DNA from: Streptococcus sp. Marseille-P6264
GTDB taxonomy: Bacteria > Bacillota > Bacilli > Lactobacillales > Streptococcaceae
Direction: 5' to 3'
Assembly: GCF_902460355.1 (NCBI RefSeq)
Contig: NZ_CABPTO010000001.1
Coordinates: 558,001-622,000 of the forward strand
DNA: 64,000 nt
A program made the position numbers and the translations under genes. Positions within the stretch are counted from its first letter, which is position 1, and every line of letters begins with the position of its first letter. Under the pieces are notes generated by a model, which ran no database searches, was not told the DNA's origin, and was given only the letters and a program-made list of their open reading frames with translations. Shown here piece by piece: positions 17,379 to 62,047 of this stretch.

Positions 17379-18803
17379 TTATTTCACATCAAACACGATG
17401 GATTTCACTTGTGTCATCGCTTCGATACTGTAACGAATCCCTTGCACTCCGGCTCCAGATCCCTTAACACCAAGGAATGGGAAGTTATCTGGACCACGTT
17501 GGGTCTTATTATTGATGTGTACAGTACCTACTTCCAGTTTCTCAGCAATTTCAAATGCTTTAGGGAAATCATTTGTAAAGACTGAAGATTGAAGACCAAA
17601 CTCTGACTGGTTACAGATCTGAATAGCCTCTTCAACGGAAGTCACACGAATAATCGGAAGAACAGGACCAAATGGCTCTTCCCAAGCTAATTTCATATCC
17701 AGTGTCACATGGTCAAACAAGGCAGGCCAGATGAGATTTGCTTCACGTTTGATTTCTGTCAGGGCTGACGCTCCCTTTTCTTGAGCATCTTCAATCAAGC
17801 CCCAGATGAAATCTGCTGATGCATGATCAATGACTGGTGTGATATCCGCATTATCAAAGGGATCACCAACCGTCAGTTTCTCTACCTCTGCCTTAATCAG
17901 CGCCGCTAATTTATCTGCTACGCTCTCCATGACAATGACACGTTTAATAGCCGTACAGCGCTGGCCTGAATAACTGTATGCCCCGCCAACAATCTGCTTA
18001 GCTGCATGCTCCAAGTCGGCATCTTCCAGCACAACTGCAGCATCCTTACCACCCAATTCTAACATAATGGGACGCATACCAGCCAACTTACCGATGCGTT
18101 CACCGATTGGAGTAGAGCCGGTAAAGTTAATGTAGTTCACTTCCTTATGCTCAATGATGTAGTCCCCGATTTCTGAACCGCGGCCAGTGATAGTATTGAA
18201 AACACCAGCAGGCAGACCAGCCTCAGAAAAAGCCTGAGCCAAGAGCAAACCAGAGATTGAACCTTGAGTAGGTGGCTTAAACATCACAACATTTCCGCCG
18301 ATAAGGGCAGGAGCAATTTTCGAAGCTGACAGATTAACTGGGTAGTTAAATGGCGCAATGGCCAGTACAACTCCTACAGGCTCACGACGGACCACAGCCA
18401 GTTTTTTCTTGCTGGCTGCTTCAAAGCCTCCACCTTCCATAACCTGGCCATGAATACGGATGCCCTCTTCAGCTGCATAGCGAATCAAGTCTGCTGTCCG
18501 GACTACCTCTCCGACTGCCGCTTTGATACCCTTGGCAACTTCCTTTGCAAGGATTTCACCAATCTTCTCCTGATCGCGCTCCAAAATATCCGCAGCCTTA
18601 TGCAGATAAGCTGCACGTTCGACTGCTGAAAGGTCGCGCCAAGCTGGCAAAGCCGCACGAGCGCTCGCCATCGCATAATCAACCTCTGACTGACTCATCG
18701 CAGGAACAGTTCCTAAAATCTCATTATTGATAGGAGATGAGATGGTGATTTCATTTTCAGAAGCTCTCCACTCTCCATTTATATAGTTCTTATATTGTGT
18801 CAC
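17379..18803 (-). CDS. gapN: NADP-dependent non-phosphorylating glyceraldehyde-3-phosphate dehydrogenase
   Basis: GapN oxidises glyceraldehyde-3-phosphate directly to 3-phosphoglycerate and yields NADPH, the main NADPH source in streptococci without a complete oxidative pentose pathway. The 474 residues show the aldehyde dehydrogenase fold, with Glu249 (IMLELGGKD) and catalytic Cys283 (SGQRCTAIK). The length and motifs match S. mutans GapN. The start is GTG at 18803 behind GGAGGGG. It is monocistronic, with its own promoter and terminator. Confidence 0.96.
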   Translation of the reverse strand: MTQYKNYINGEWRASENEITISSPINNEILGTVPAMSQSEVDYAMASARAALPAWRDLSAVERAAYLHKAADILERDQEKIGEILAKEVAKGIKAAVGEVVRTADLIRYAAEEGIRIHGQVMEGGGFEAASKKKLAVVRREPVGVVLAIAPFNYPVNLSASKIAPALIGGNVVMFKPPTQGSISGLLLAQAFSEAGLPAGVFNTITGRGSEIGDYIIEHKEVNYINFTGSTPIGERIGKLAGMRPIMLELGGKDAAVVLEDADLEHAAKQIVGGAYSYSGQRCTAIKRVIVMESVADKLAALIKAEVEKLTVGDPFDNADITPVIDHASADFIWGLIEDAQEKGASALTEIKREANLIWPALFDHVTLDMKLAWEEPFGPVLPIIRVTSVEEAIQICNQSEFGLQSSVFTNDFPKAFEIAEKLEVGTVHINNKTQRGPDNFPFLGVKGSGAGVQGIRYSIEAMTQVKSIVFDVK

Positions 18804-18832
18804 GTGTCCCCTCCAAAATCTTATTAAGTATC

Positions 18833-18860
18833 ATTTTATCAAATTTTCTGAAAATTTCAA
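18833..18860 (-). promoter_or_regulatory. Promoter of gapN
   Basis: -35 TTGAAA (18855-18860) and -10 TAAAAT (18833-18838) with a 16-base spacer, 30 bases before the GTG start. Confidence 0.7.
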
Positions 18861-18997
18861 CTAAATTTTATAAATTTAAAGAAATTTTTCACAAATTTCA
18901 CAAATCATTTTCTTTTGTTTATATGAACTCTCCATATTTCTCGATTTTTCATCGAGTCTCACTTTCTACACTAGGTCTACTATGGCGCTGAAGAAAA

Positions 18998-19028
18998 CAA
19001 AAAAAGACCAGGAAAATTTCCTGATCTT
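18998..19028 (-). terminator. Terminator after ptsHI
   Basis: AAGATCAGGAAA pairs with TTTCCTGGTCTT (one G-T pair), followed by TTTTTTG on the minus strand, ten bases after the ptsI stop. Confidence 0.85.
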
Positions 19029-19038
19029 AATTTTCAGA

Positions 19039-20772
19039 TTAATCAAAGTCAAGATATTCTTTTTCAAGTTCAAGAACTTCTTCCATCGTTGCACATTCAG
19101 TCAATGCGCGTTGTGCAAGTTCTTCCATCTTCTTCGTATCCAATTTCTTCATAAGGCTACGAGTCCGAAGGACAGAAGTGGCACTCATAGAGAATTCATC
19201 CAAGCCCATTCCGACAAGAAGCGGCACAGCTGTTTGGTCACCGGCCATTTCCCCACACATACCTGCCCATTTGCCTTCAGCGTGAGCAGCCTTGATAACG
19301 TTGTTGATCAAGCGAAGGATTGATGGGTTGTATGGTTGGTAGAGGTATGAAACTTGTTCGTTCATGCGGTCGGCAGCCATTGTATATTGGATCAAGTCGT
19401 TAGTACCGATAGAGAAGAAATCAACTTCTTTGGCAAATTGATCAGCTAGCATTGCTGCTGCTGGAATTTCAATCATGATACCCACTTGGATATTATCCGC
19501 TACAGCAACTCCTTCCGCTTGCAATTTCGCTTTTTCTTCTTCGTAAACTGCTTTAGCCTTGCGGAATTCTGTCAAGAGAGCAACCATTGGGAACATGATA
19601 CGCAATTGTCCATGTACAGAAGCACGCAAGAGAGCGCGGATTTGTGTACGGAACATAGCGTCACCAGTTTCAGAGATAGAGATACGCAATGCACGGAAAC
19701 CAAGGAACGGGTTCATTTCATGCGGCATATCGAAGTAAGGAAGCTCCTTATCTCCACCGATGTCCATCGTACGGACAACCACTGGTTTTCCATTCATGCC
19801 TTCCAAGACAGCCTTGTAAGCTTCGTATTGCTCATCTTCTGTTGGGAAGTCTTGTGAATCCATATAAAGGAATTCTGTACGGTAAAGACCTACGGCTTCA
19901 GCACCATTCGCATTGACACCTTCAACGTCTTTTGGTGTACCGATATTAGCAGCGAGTTCAAAGTGTTTGCCATCAGCAGTCACTGTTTGAGCATCTTTCA
20001 AGAGAGCCCATTCAGCTTTTTGCTTCGCATAAGCTTCACCAGCTGCCTTGAATGCTGCTGCCTGCTCTTCAGTTGGGTTAATGATAACTTCACCAGTGAT
20101 ACCATTTGCTGCAATGATATCGCCGTCTTTAACGAGTTCAGTAATATTATTGGTCCCCAATACGGCTGCGATTTCAAGCGTACGCGCCATAATCGCAGAG
20201 TGGCTTGTTCGTCCACCGATATTGGTTACAAACGCTTTAACAAATTTCTTGTCTAATTGAGCTGTATCAGAAGGAGTCAAGTCATGTGCAATGACAACTG
20301 ATTCTTCATTGATAGAAGCTGGATTTGGTAATTTCTTGCCCAAAAGGTTTGCCAAAACACGCTTCGTTACGTCACGAATATCTGCCGCGCGTTCTTGCAT
20401 GTATGGATTGTCTTCCATACCTTCAAAAATAGCGATAAACATGTCTGTAACTTCTTTCAGACCAGCTTCCGCATTTACTTTCTTAGTACGGATCGTTTCT
20501 TTGATTTGACCAACCATTTCAGGGTCAGCGAGTACCATTAAGTGAGCGTCAAATACTTGAGCCGCTTCCTCACCAAGGCTATCTACTGCTTTCTCACGGA
20601 TAACAGAAAGCTCGTTCTGTGAAGCTTCAAGAGCTGCATCCAAACGAGCCTCTTCTGCATTCGTATCATCGACTGAAACAGTCTCAAATGACAAATCCGG
20701 TTGAACTAATAGATATGCCTTAGCAACGGCAACACCGTCAGATGCTGCAATTCCTTTAAGCATTTCTGTCAT
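19039..20772 (-). CDS. ptsI: PTS enzyme I (phosphoenolpyruvate-protein phosphotransferase)
   Basis: Enzyme I takes phosphate from phosphoenolpyruvate and passes it to HPr, powering all PTS sugar uptake. The 577 residues include the phosphorylated His191 ([12 protein letters not shown]), the PEP-binding barrel with [14 protein letters not shown], and the active-site Cys in [13 protein letters not shown] near 500. The start [11 protein letters not shown] at 20772 lies 4 bases after the ptsH stop, as in other streptococci. It has little Shine-Dalgarno sequence of its own, so translation is probably coupled to ptsH. Confidence 0.97.
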
Positions 20773-60577: not shown

Positions 60578-61059
60578 CTTTGATCCTCTATAGCCATTTA
60601 AATGTTTCCAAAAACCAATATTACCCGCTCAAGCACATTAAGCAAAGAAATTTAACTGCCATTTTCTATCCCTCATAAGCATATCTTTATTGAATTCTAG
60701 TTGCGTAAGAGAACAGTGTTGAGGCCAACAAAAAGCATTATCTTTTTTCACTTCAAAATCAAAAGCTAAAATGACTCTCCATCTCACCAGTTACCGCTAA
60801 TACGTATATCCTATACTTTGACAATTTTTTCCGAAATTTCCATTCTTCATTTCGACCCGAGCAATTTTTCTTCTCCCATATTTTACCATATTTTCGCTCG
60901 ATACTTAAAATGAAGAAACCGATTCAGAGAAAAGGCCGTTTGAAACTATTATATTGCTTACTACCACAGCACTTAAAAAATGGAAACTTCCATCAAAGAA
61001 AACTATACCACGAAACTCTAGTCTAATCTAAAAAAACAGCGGATTTTTAAAAACATTCA
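60578..61059. other. Intergenic stretch without identifiable gene
   Basis: About 480 AT-rich bases between nnrD and the hairpin array. A 38-codon open frame at 60910-61026 on the plus strand has no ribosome binding site and looks like chance. No promoter pair, RNA gene or repeat could be supported. Confidence 0.6.
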
Positions 61060-61339
61060 GTTACCACTGCAACTCTTTGCTTGTAACCAAAAACGGCTAT
61101 CGGCTCATCCAAATAAACAAATTTATCTTGAAAACAAAAAAGGTCCAGTGGACCTTTTCTAAATGTTAAGTTACTACCGTAACTTTCTATCAACAACCTA
61201 AAAATGTCTCCCAGACATTTTGAAGAAAACTCTGTTTTCTTTATCTGCAACTTAAAAAGGTCCAATGGACATTAATAAACGAAAACTCGCTCTCGCGAGC
61301 TCCCATCTGCAACCTGAAACAATCCACCGGATTGTTTCA
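61060..61339. repeat. Hairpin array downstream of livF with constant linkers and variable arms
   Basis: At least seven hairpins lie in 280 bases. They are GTTAC/GTAAC with nested GCAA/TTGC (61060-61087), AAAAGGTCC/GGACCTTTT (61138-61158), AAGTTAC/GTAACTT (61168-61185), AAAATGTCT/AGACATTTT (61201-61221), GAAAAC/GTTTTC (61225-61239), CTCGC/GCGAG (61286-61299) and TGAAACAATCC/GGATTGTTTCA (61315-61339). A partial GGTCC/GGAC lies at 61259-61270. A linker of the form ATCTGCAACCTG recurs at 61189, 61243 and 61305, each directly before a hairpin. The last hairpin contains the livF stop codon. The linker is like the ATCTGCAACCT found in repeats of S. pneumoniae. Confidence 0.85.
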
Positions 61340-62047
61340 GCCACCTAGATATGCTTTTCGGACTTCGTCAGAAGCGAGAAGTTCTTGGCCTGTTCCAGAT
61401 AGAACAATTTTTCCTGTTTCAAGAACATAACCACGGTCTGCGATAGAGAGTGCCTTGTTGGCATTTTGCTCGATCAAAAGCACAGTTGTACCCTGCTTTT
61501 GAATATCTTGGATGATGTCAAAGATTTCTTGGATGAAGATAGGAGCCAGCCCCATTGACGGCTCATCCAAGAGTAAGAGTTTAGGCGTAGACATGAGCGC
61601 TCGGCCCATAGCTAGCATCTGCTGCTCACCACCAGATAGAGTCGCTGCATCTTGGTTCTTACGCTCTTCCAAGCGTGGAAAACGAGAGAAGACCTTTTTG
61701 AGATTGGCTTGGTTCTCTTCACGATTTTTCTTAAGAAAAGCTCCCATTTCAAGATTTTCCAAAACGGTCAAACCTGGAAAGATATGACGGCCTTCTGGAA
61801 CTTGCGAAAGCCCCGCAGCTACAATCTTTTGAGCAGGCACTTTTTGAATTTCATTGCCTAAAAATTCAATCTTCCCAGCACTTGGGCGAACCAAACCAGA
61901 GATCGTGCGAAGGATAGTCGTTTTACCAGCACCATTGGCACCGATAAGGGAAACAACCTCTCCTTCGTTGACTTCAAAGCTGACATCACGGACAGCCTGA
62001 ATCATGCCATAGTGGACAGATAGATTTTCAACTTTGAGCATGGACAT
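61337..62047 (-). CDS. livF: Branched-chain amino acid ABC transporter ATP-binding protein LivF
   Basis: This is one of two ATPases of the high-affinity leucine/isoleucine/valine importer. The 236 residues have Walker A SLIGANGAGKTTIL near 33, signature LSGGEQQMLAMGRAL near 137 and Walker B LLLLDEPSMGLAP near 157. The start overlaps the livG stop (TAATG). The stop codon is inside a strong hairpin. Confidence 0.96.
   Translation of the reverse strand: MSMLKVENLSVHYGMIQAVRDVSFEVNEGEVVSLIGANGAGKTTILRTISGLVRPSAGKIEFLGNEIQKVPAQKIVAAGLSQVPEGRHIFPGLTVLENLEMGAFLKKNREENQANLKKVFSRFPRLEERKNQDAATLSGGEQQMLAMGRALMSTPKLLLLDEPSMGLAPIFIQEIFDIIQDIQKQGTTVLLIEQNANKALSIADRGYVLETGKIVLSGTGQELLASDEVRKAYLGG

Follow-up and report, generated by a model that had tools for sequence, protein, structure and literature searches.

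An array of boxB-type hairpins at the livF stop codon in streptococci

The closest described relatives of the repeat analysed in this work are the BOX elements of S. pneumoniae, S. mitis and S. suis, in which an A hairpin, a linker of the type GGTTGNNGATAG and a B hairpin likewise follow one another in tandem. The excerpts of the BOX survey that we used (PMC3049150) describe elements able to provide the stop codons of upstream genes, in 36 cases, and report BOX as almost wholly missing from the sanguinis group; the array described here, in contrast, occurs in that group. SPRITE elements, compared by their description in the same excerpts, resemble the array in their terminator-like hairpin, their A/T ends and their place near gene 3' ends, but they are described as an 18-bp duplex with a long U-rich tract and not as an array with linkers (PMC3049150). 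The REP/BIME repeats of enterobacteria are also palindromic units that build composite intergenic mosaics (PMC3049150, in excerpt), although their linker and their host group are different. Template-switch mutation at imperfect inverted repeats, according to the part of PMC8794818 used here, can make the arms of a hairpin complementary in a single event, as may have happened at livF; unlike the array it is a mutational process and not an element, and at this locus its action would be read from the sequence only.

Layout and affinity of the livF array

In the window, the whole 64,000-nucleotide stretch of streptococcal DNA that was analysed, the array spans 61138-61340 on the minus strand, with boxB-type modules from the livF stop codon onward (Table 1). 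The best NCBIfam match of the livF product is LivF, at 307 bits and so below the curated cut-off of 441, and the closest named proteins, at 98%, are those of S. sanguinis and S. sinensis. On the minus strand each unit reads hairpin A, linker GGTTGNNGATA and hairpin B, and the whole array runs A1, linker, B1, A2, linker, B2, A3, linker, B3, A4 and a T run; on the plus strand linkers 1 and 2 read ATCTGCAAC and linker 3 reads ATCAACAAC. The array begins one base ahead of the livF stop codon: A1 opens with the third base of the last livF codon, and TGA forms stem positions 2-4. The full 5' arm is present in this first hairpin, the head, and mostly absent from the inner ones, which retain the T-rich 3' arm on the livF-sense strand.

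Table 1. Parts of the array and the adjoining gene (positions in the window)
Feature	Position	Strand	Evidence or remark
livF, branched-chain amino acid ABC transporter ATPase	61337..62047	-	stop TGA 61337-61339 inside head hairpin
A1, head hairpin, 12 bp, loop GGT, CTGAAACAATCC/GGATTGTTTCAG, includes livF stop	61314..61340	-	R1 55.5 bits
Linker 1 GTTGCAGATG, boxB-type	61304..61313	-	
B1 hairpin GGGAGCTCGC-GAGA-GCGAGTTTTC, three G-U pairs on minus strand	61281..61304	-	terminator-like in scan (offset 40)
A2, complete 3' arm GGACCTTTTTAA; outer 5' arm lost or chimeric	61252..61273	-	R1 23.2 bits
Linker 2 GTTGCAGATA	61242..61251	-	
B2 hairpin AAGAAAAC-AGA-GTTTTCTT	61223..61241	-	stem count
A3, AAAATGTCT-GGG-AGACATTTT(TAG), 9 bp, outer 5' arm unpaired	61198..61221	-	R1 51.5 bits
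Linker 3 GTTGTTGATA	61188..61197	-	
B3 hairpin AAGTTAC-GGTA-GTAACTT	61168..61185	-	stem count
A4, final A hairpin, not followed by a linker, then T run; terminator-like array end	61138..61158	-	scan (offset 185)

The hairpin cluster that a sequence-only reading had placed at 61060-61339 is real. That segment holds five perfect stems, each of 7 bp or more and with a loop of 1-4 nt, against a mean of 0.115 and a maximum of 2 in 1000 dinucleotide shuffles; adding A2, which is imperfect, and B1, which contains G-U pairs, brings the count to seven hairpins. Its extent had to be redrawn, as no array units were seen in 61060-61137 and the first hairpin runs into livF. Among 456 tiles of 280 nt across the window the top value of four stems was reached in only two, one of them the array; the other, 18761-19040, is AT-rich, and no boxB linker array was seen on reading it. 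RNA folding of 61050-61345 gave z = -6.1 for the minus and -7.3 for the plus strand. Rfam has no family match at the array, and the structured RNA that had been suggested is not indicated as a described family; the sole Rfam match in the window is a T-box leader (RF00230, 2374-2610, minus strand, 96.2 bits).

The conserved linkers of the earlier reading stand as three copies within the array, but not as a clear signal by themselves. The pattern GGTTGYNGATR matches the own genome (2.04 Mb, 13 contigs) 32 times, against 16 for the reversed control, and when up to 2 mismatches are allowed the linker shows no excess in the window (36 matches, 29.7 expected). Only 3 of the 32 genome matches lie in the livF array and in a second array, described below, behind a sufB-like gene, on which ground we reject the linker alone as a dispersed signal; 7 others come from one region, C1:318524-321489, of repeats about 366 bases apart that look coding.

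Is this array a BOX element? The published boxB probe (PMC2444020, in excerpt), when reverse-complemented, reads ...TTTTGAGGTTGTAGATAGAACTGAC, and its linker is the same as that of the array. Linkers 1 and 3 share 11/14 and 12/14 positions with the published boxB consensus and linker 2, when compared by hand, 10/14; the boxB succession of hairpin, linker and hairpin is present at livF. Model R1, made of hairpin A and linker from 18 units with 12 pairs and built without any canonical boxB, nevertheless hits canonical boxB: in genome G001 six 30-nt whole-model hits were listed, five were fetched, and all five lie inside boxA-boxB-boxC-like elements, whose ends we take to be boxA and boxC. The number of tandem units differs among related genomes, as does boxB copy number between strains. 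The assignment to a dispersed class of pneumococcal-type repeats is upheld, the class being boxB of BOX. In contrast to BOX, the livF array carries no boxA or boxC, consists of three unit types, has a fixed place at the livF stop, and has an A stem of 12 bp, against 8 in BOX, with truncated 5' arms in its inner A hairpins. A BOX of G001 (L190) used as query found 47 places in that genome and three weak partial matches in each of the sanguinis-type genomes G034 and G045 (best E 9.8e-9); it found none in the own genome at E 0.01, and no boxA or boxC was seen in the flanks of the array. Our best reading is a stand-alone boxB-type array, a variant of the known BOX module without boxA and boxC. No printed description of boxB arrays at livF or sufB was found in the open-licence literature, where sufB was not queried by name.

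Occurrence of the array and its units

A DNA search of the own genome gave one further match, C6:123393-123484, directly past the stop codon of a gene that we take to be SufB-like from reading its translation, and beyond the livF and sufB arrays R1 found weaker palindromes. A second array type lies on contig C7 (see below); BOX-like dispersal in many copies was not found in this genome. At C5:178084-178390, in what by eye looks like a broken transposase-like gene, a pair of A-hairpin-type palindromes is spaced by about 240 bases. Other genomes have many R1 matches, and dispersed BOX-type copies occur for example in G024, G035 and G001. The elements of G024 (L194-L200), like L244-L247, combine a boxB-like core with long ends that do not resemble pneumococcal boxA and boxC; they recur at many sites within one genome and are possibly of the boxE/boxF type described for S. 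suis.

The arms had been called unrelated, with linker and architecture alone being kept. This was not borne out: three unit types, AAACAATCC/GAACTCGC, AAAAGGTCC/AGAAAAC and AAAATGTCT/GAAAGTTAC, recur whole in sanguinis-type relatives, so that the array is a copied repeat, with whole units copied within arrays and between genomes. The same arms at many loci, which the sequence-only reading had itself named as the mark of a standard copied repeat, are what we found. At E 0.001 the array DNA has matches in 89 of the 147 genomes searched in the genus, in many cases through short hairpin stretches only, while R1 at the same threshold matches 261 of 284. In an order-wide draw of 148 genomes R1 matched 19, all in the genus of the window (1 of 48 genera). 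Among the R1 matches listed (30 loci), 6 lie at livF and 1 at sufB, and 23 have no start at a stop codon.

The livF end was located in 138 of the 147 genomes and read in 133, of which 86 carry the array at the livF stop. The head is matched in 85 of these (74 of them fully Watson-Crick) and a mismatched chimera in one (G008). In 76 genomes the head is 27 nt long, begins one base ahead of the stop and forms 11 or 12 of 12 Watson-Crick pairs; 8 others have a 28-nt head and G023 a 13-bp one. Array carriers with names include S. sanguinis, S. sinensis, S. mitis SK579, S. suis HCJ31 and Streptococcus sp. Marseille-Q0941; S. anginosus, S. ovuberis and S. porci are named examples that lack it. None of the 47 other genomes shows the pattern at the livF stop; among them, a lone unit lies some 100 nt past that stop in G052, and a single pattern match in G026 was taken as chance.

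Matched heads and chimeric inner hairpins

Heads and inner hairpins differ sharply in their pairing. With a fixed linker pattern, 67 heads were collected in 84 genomes; of the 41 distinct ones, 40 form all 12 pairs. The 99 inner units from 59 genomes reduce to 79 distinct forms, and none of these forms all 12 pairs: TTT follows the core on the 3' side in 78 of the 79, and AAA precedes it on the 5' side in 15. Since heads were recognised by their pairing, the weight of this contrast lies with the inner units and with the low frequency of half-paired heads (1/86). At sufB, in 11 genomes, the head is perfect in 7, has one mismatch in 3 and is shifted by one base in 1, and the six distinct inner units are chimeric. 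Outside the loop-closing pair, mismatches in heads favour neither strand, with 3 distinct G-U and 4 distinct A-C cases, and these counts of G-U against A-C give no clear sign either way of selection at the RNA level.

The arms co-vary throughout the family. Among 22 distinct heads anchored at the stop, two-sided change was seen in 44 cells and one-sided change in 6, with 1 cell unpaired, whereas shuffles gave a mean of 14.1 two-sided cells; the number of pair types was not above that of shuffles (13 vs 14.2). A livF tree of 599 bases and 96 rows (76 with matched heads, G008 being among the 20 others) requires at minimum 33 changes of 3' arm type, 31 of 5' arm type and 6 of presence or absence, counts that may be inflated because 24 of its 93 inner branches are unsupported. 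In 72 of the 76 heads the arms are exactly complementary, the innermost pair aside.

The array in G008 (L036, L258) is the exception. Its 5' arm CTGAAACAATCT and 3' arm AGACATTTTTAG are mismatched at the type-specific pairs 7-9, where no other array head has a mismatch; it has the appearance of two unit types joined by a crossover in the loop (TCTGGGAGA), and is a possible intermediate of head switching.

Close pairs of genomes show how a head may differ where livF hardly does. In L275 and L387 livF is identical but for 1 of 600 bases, 33 nt from the stop, yet their heads differ at four positions of the 5' arm, with the type-specific pairs matched, and one array has one head-end unit more (read in L328, of the genome of L387). 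One of the two heads, CTAAAAAGGTCT with a T-G closing pair, is also present in other genomes. Between L386 and L388, 8 of 14 livF differences fall in the last 100 nt. This is not general: the last 100 nt hold 90 of 500 livF differences in the 24 nearest pairs with different heads and 88 of 535 in 24 same-head pairs (Fisher p = 0.51), and import tracts as the general cause of head switching are unsupported. What needs explaining is the rarity of chimeric heads, which in our view a local one-step process fits best.

Role, upkeep and wider family of the arrays

What are the roles of these arrays, and how are their heads kept matched? Terminator-like sites per 400 nt number 2.79 on the sense and 0.25 on the antisense strand in the 85 array genomes, against 0.71 and 0.25 in the other 48 (including G008). 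The first 90 nt hold such a site in 53 of the 85 and none in 32. In the window the scan gave sense sites at B1 and A4 only, none at the head, and one antisense site, and a stricter terminator scan gave 0 at the array. RNA polymerase outruns ribosomes in many low-GC Gram-positive bacteria (PMC13323073, in excerpt), which would make a terminator overlapping a stop codon plausible, and BOX elements have been seen transcribed as operon 3' extensions (PMC3049150, in excerpt).

We lean towards the view that the stand-alone boxB-type array supplies terminator-like hairpins of the liv transcript, that its units are tandem-copied, and that the two arms of its head are rewritten together, possibly by template switching; for function and rewriting alike we argue from DNA comparison. 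The array would act as a row of terminator-like or RNA-end hairpins. Units would be gained and lost by tandem recombination with breakpoints within hairpins, which would account for the shortened 5' arms of inner units and for the rare occurrence of a chimeric head. Both head arms would then be re-matched together, most simply by fold-back template switching in replication, where copying would begin at the GC core and loop and return at the conserved outer CTNAAA/TTTNAG, and selection for a hairpin close to the stop codon may maintain matched heads. Local inverted copying, which the sequence-only reading had raised for all arms, stays a live idea for the head hairpin.

Heads could instead have been swapped between strains as ready-made blocks, by homologous recombination (natural transformation), their matched arms having arisen once per type long ago under selection. 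We regard this as possible rather than probable: head types are few and recur across clades, the imperfect head CTAAAAAGGTCT is shared between genomes, and such an exchange also fits L275/L387, whose sole livF difference lies near the stop, as do most of those of L386/L388, but the comparison of pairs with different and same heads reveals no general import tract. It seems unlikely that the heads arose by stepwise compensatory mutation, under selection for a terminator hairpin overlapping the stop codon and with no special mutational process. Such selection is consistent with the 85 of 86 matched heads, 74 of them fully Watson-Crick, and with terminator-like hairpins within the first 90 nt past the stop of 17 of the 48 other livF genes (including G008); G008 also shows that mismatched heads exist, so that its head may be an intermediate and stepwise repair is conceivable. 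Against it, pairs 7-9 are mismatched in G008 alone, the heads of L275/L387 differ at four 5'-arm positions against one in livF, and inner hairpins tolerate chimeric arms.

We think it slightly more doubtful still that the array is a parasitic MITE-like element, sitting at gene ends by chance and without a host role, as Croucher 2011 argues for the nature of BOX (PMC3049150, in excerpt). The dispersed BOX-type copies of G024, G035 and G001 would agree with this, whereas the livF array lacks boxA and boxC ends, its own genome has 0 BOX matches against 47 in G001, and a single fixed position at livF is shared by 86 of 133 genomes. An independent trans-acting small RNA or a riboswitch is very improbable, for in spite of strong folding on both strands Rfam gives no match, the size and order of the array vary between genomes, and it directly adjoins the livF stop instead of being set apart.

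Stop-anchored arrays are not confined to livF and sufB. At C7:22554-22721 of the own genome (L147, L398) a second array has the same A hairpin, a linker CCCGAGC...GCGAGG and a period of 49; it begins at the stop of a small gene (NCBIfam PRK13678, which we take to be UPF0473), and the outermost position of its head is a G-G mismatch. Its DNA matches 123 of 147 genomes, a number that may include matches to other arrays, which are not separable there. Among 20 loci from its top hits, 17 open, at a stop codon behind an open frame, with a hairpin of 11 bp or more in which one mismatch was permitted; several different genes are involved, and the arrays have the C7-type linker. By eye, the outer base of the head is carried in the inner 3' arms of 13 of 18 arrays, and 5 are mixed or different. 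The perfect palindrome TAAAAAGGTCCNNNGGACCTTTTTA, a test not chosen by array or linker, is present in 43 of 98 genomes. In 28 of 30 loci its TAA serves as in-frame stop to an open frame of 60 codons or more, while among other hairpins of at least 9 bp, with both strands of each counted, the figure is 2 of 80; the 28 loci, of which 10 are livF and 2 sufB, are related and not independent. In 20 of the 28 the last codon base has its pairing partner in the base past the 3' arm of the palindrome, and all 8 exceptions are G-G. We tentatively suggest, at less than even confidence, a genus-wide class of arrays nucleated at stop codons, with boxB and CCCGAGC-type as two linker families. A 12-bp palindrome would form the head, its 5' arm being the gene end (last wobble base, stop and A run), and the tandem array would repeat the 3' arms only. 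The head would be written by inverted copying across the stop, for which reason the outermost array base would tend to follow the last codon base, and turnover would occur by repeated rewriting of the head.

BOX has been judged a late arrival and parasitic partly because S. sanguinis seemed to be without it (PMC3049150, in excerpt). That sanguinis-, mitis- and suis-type genomes carry stand-alone boxB arrays at a single fixed gene end speaks for a module that is older and possibly useful. The array head, which is matched in 85 of 86 genomes although its type changed at least 31-33 times on one gene tree, offers a test bed for template switching, recombination and selection in the upkeep of hairpins.
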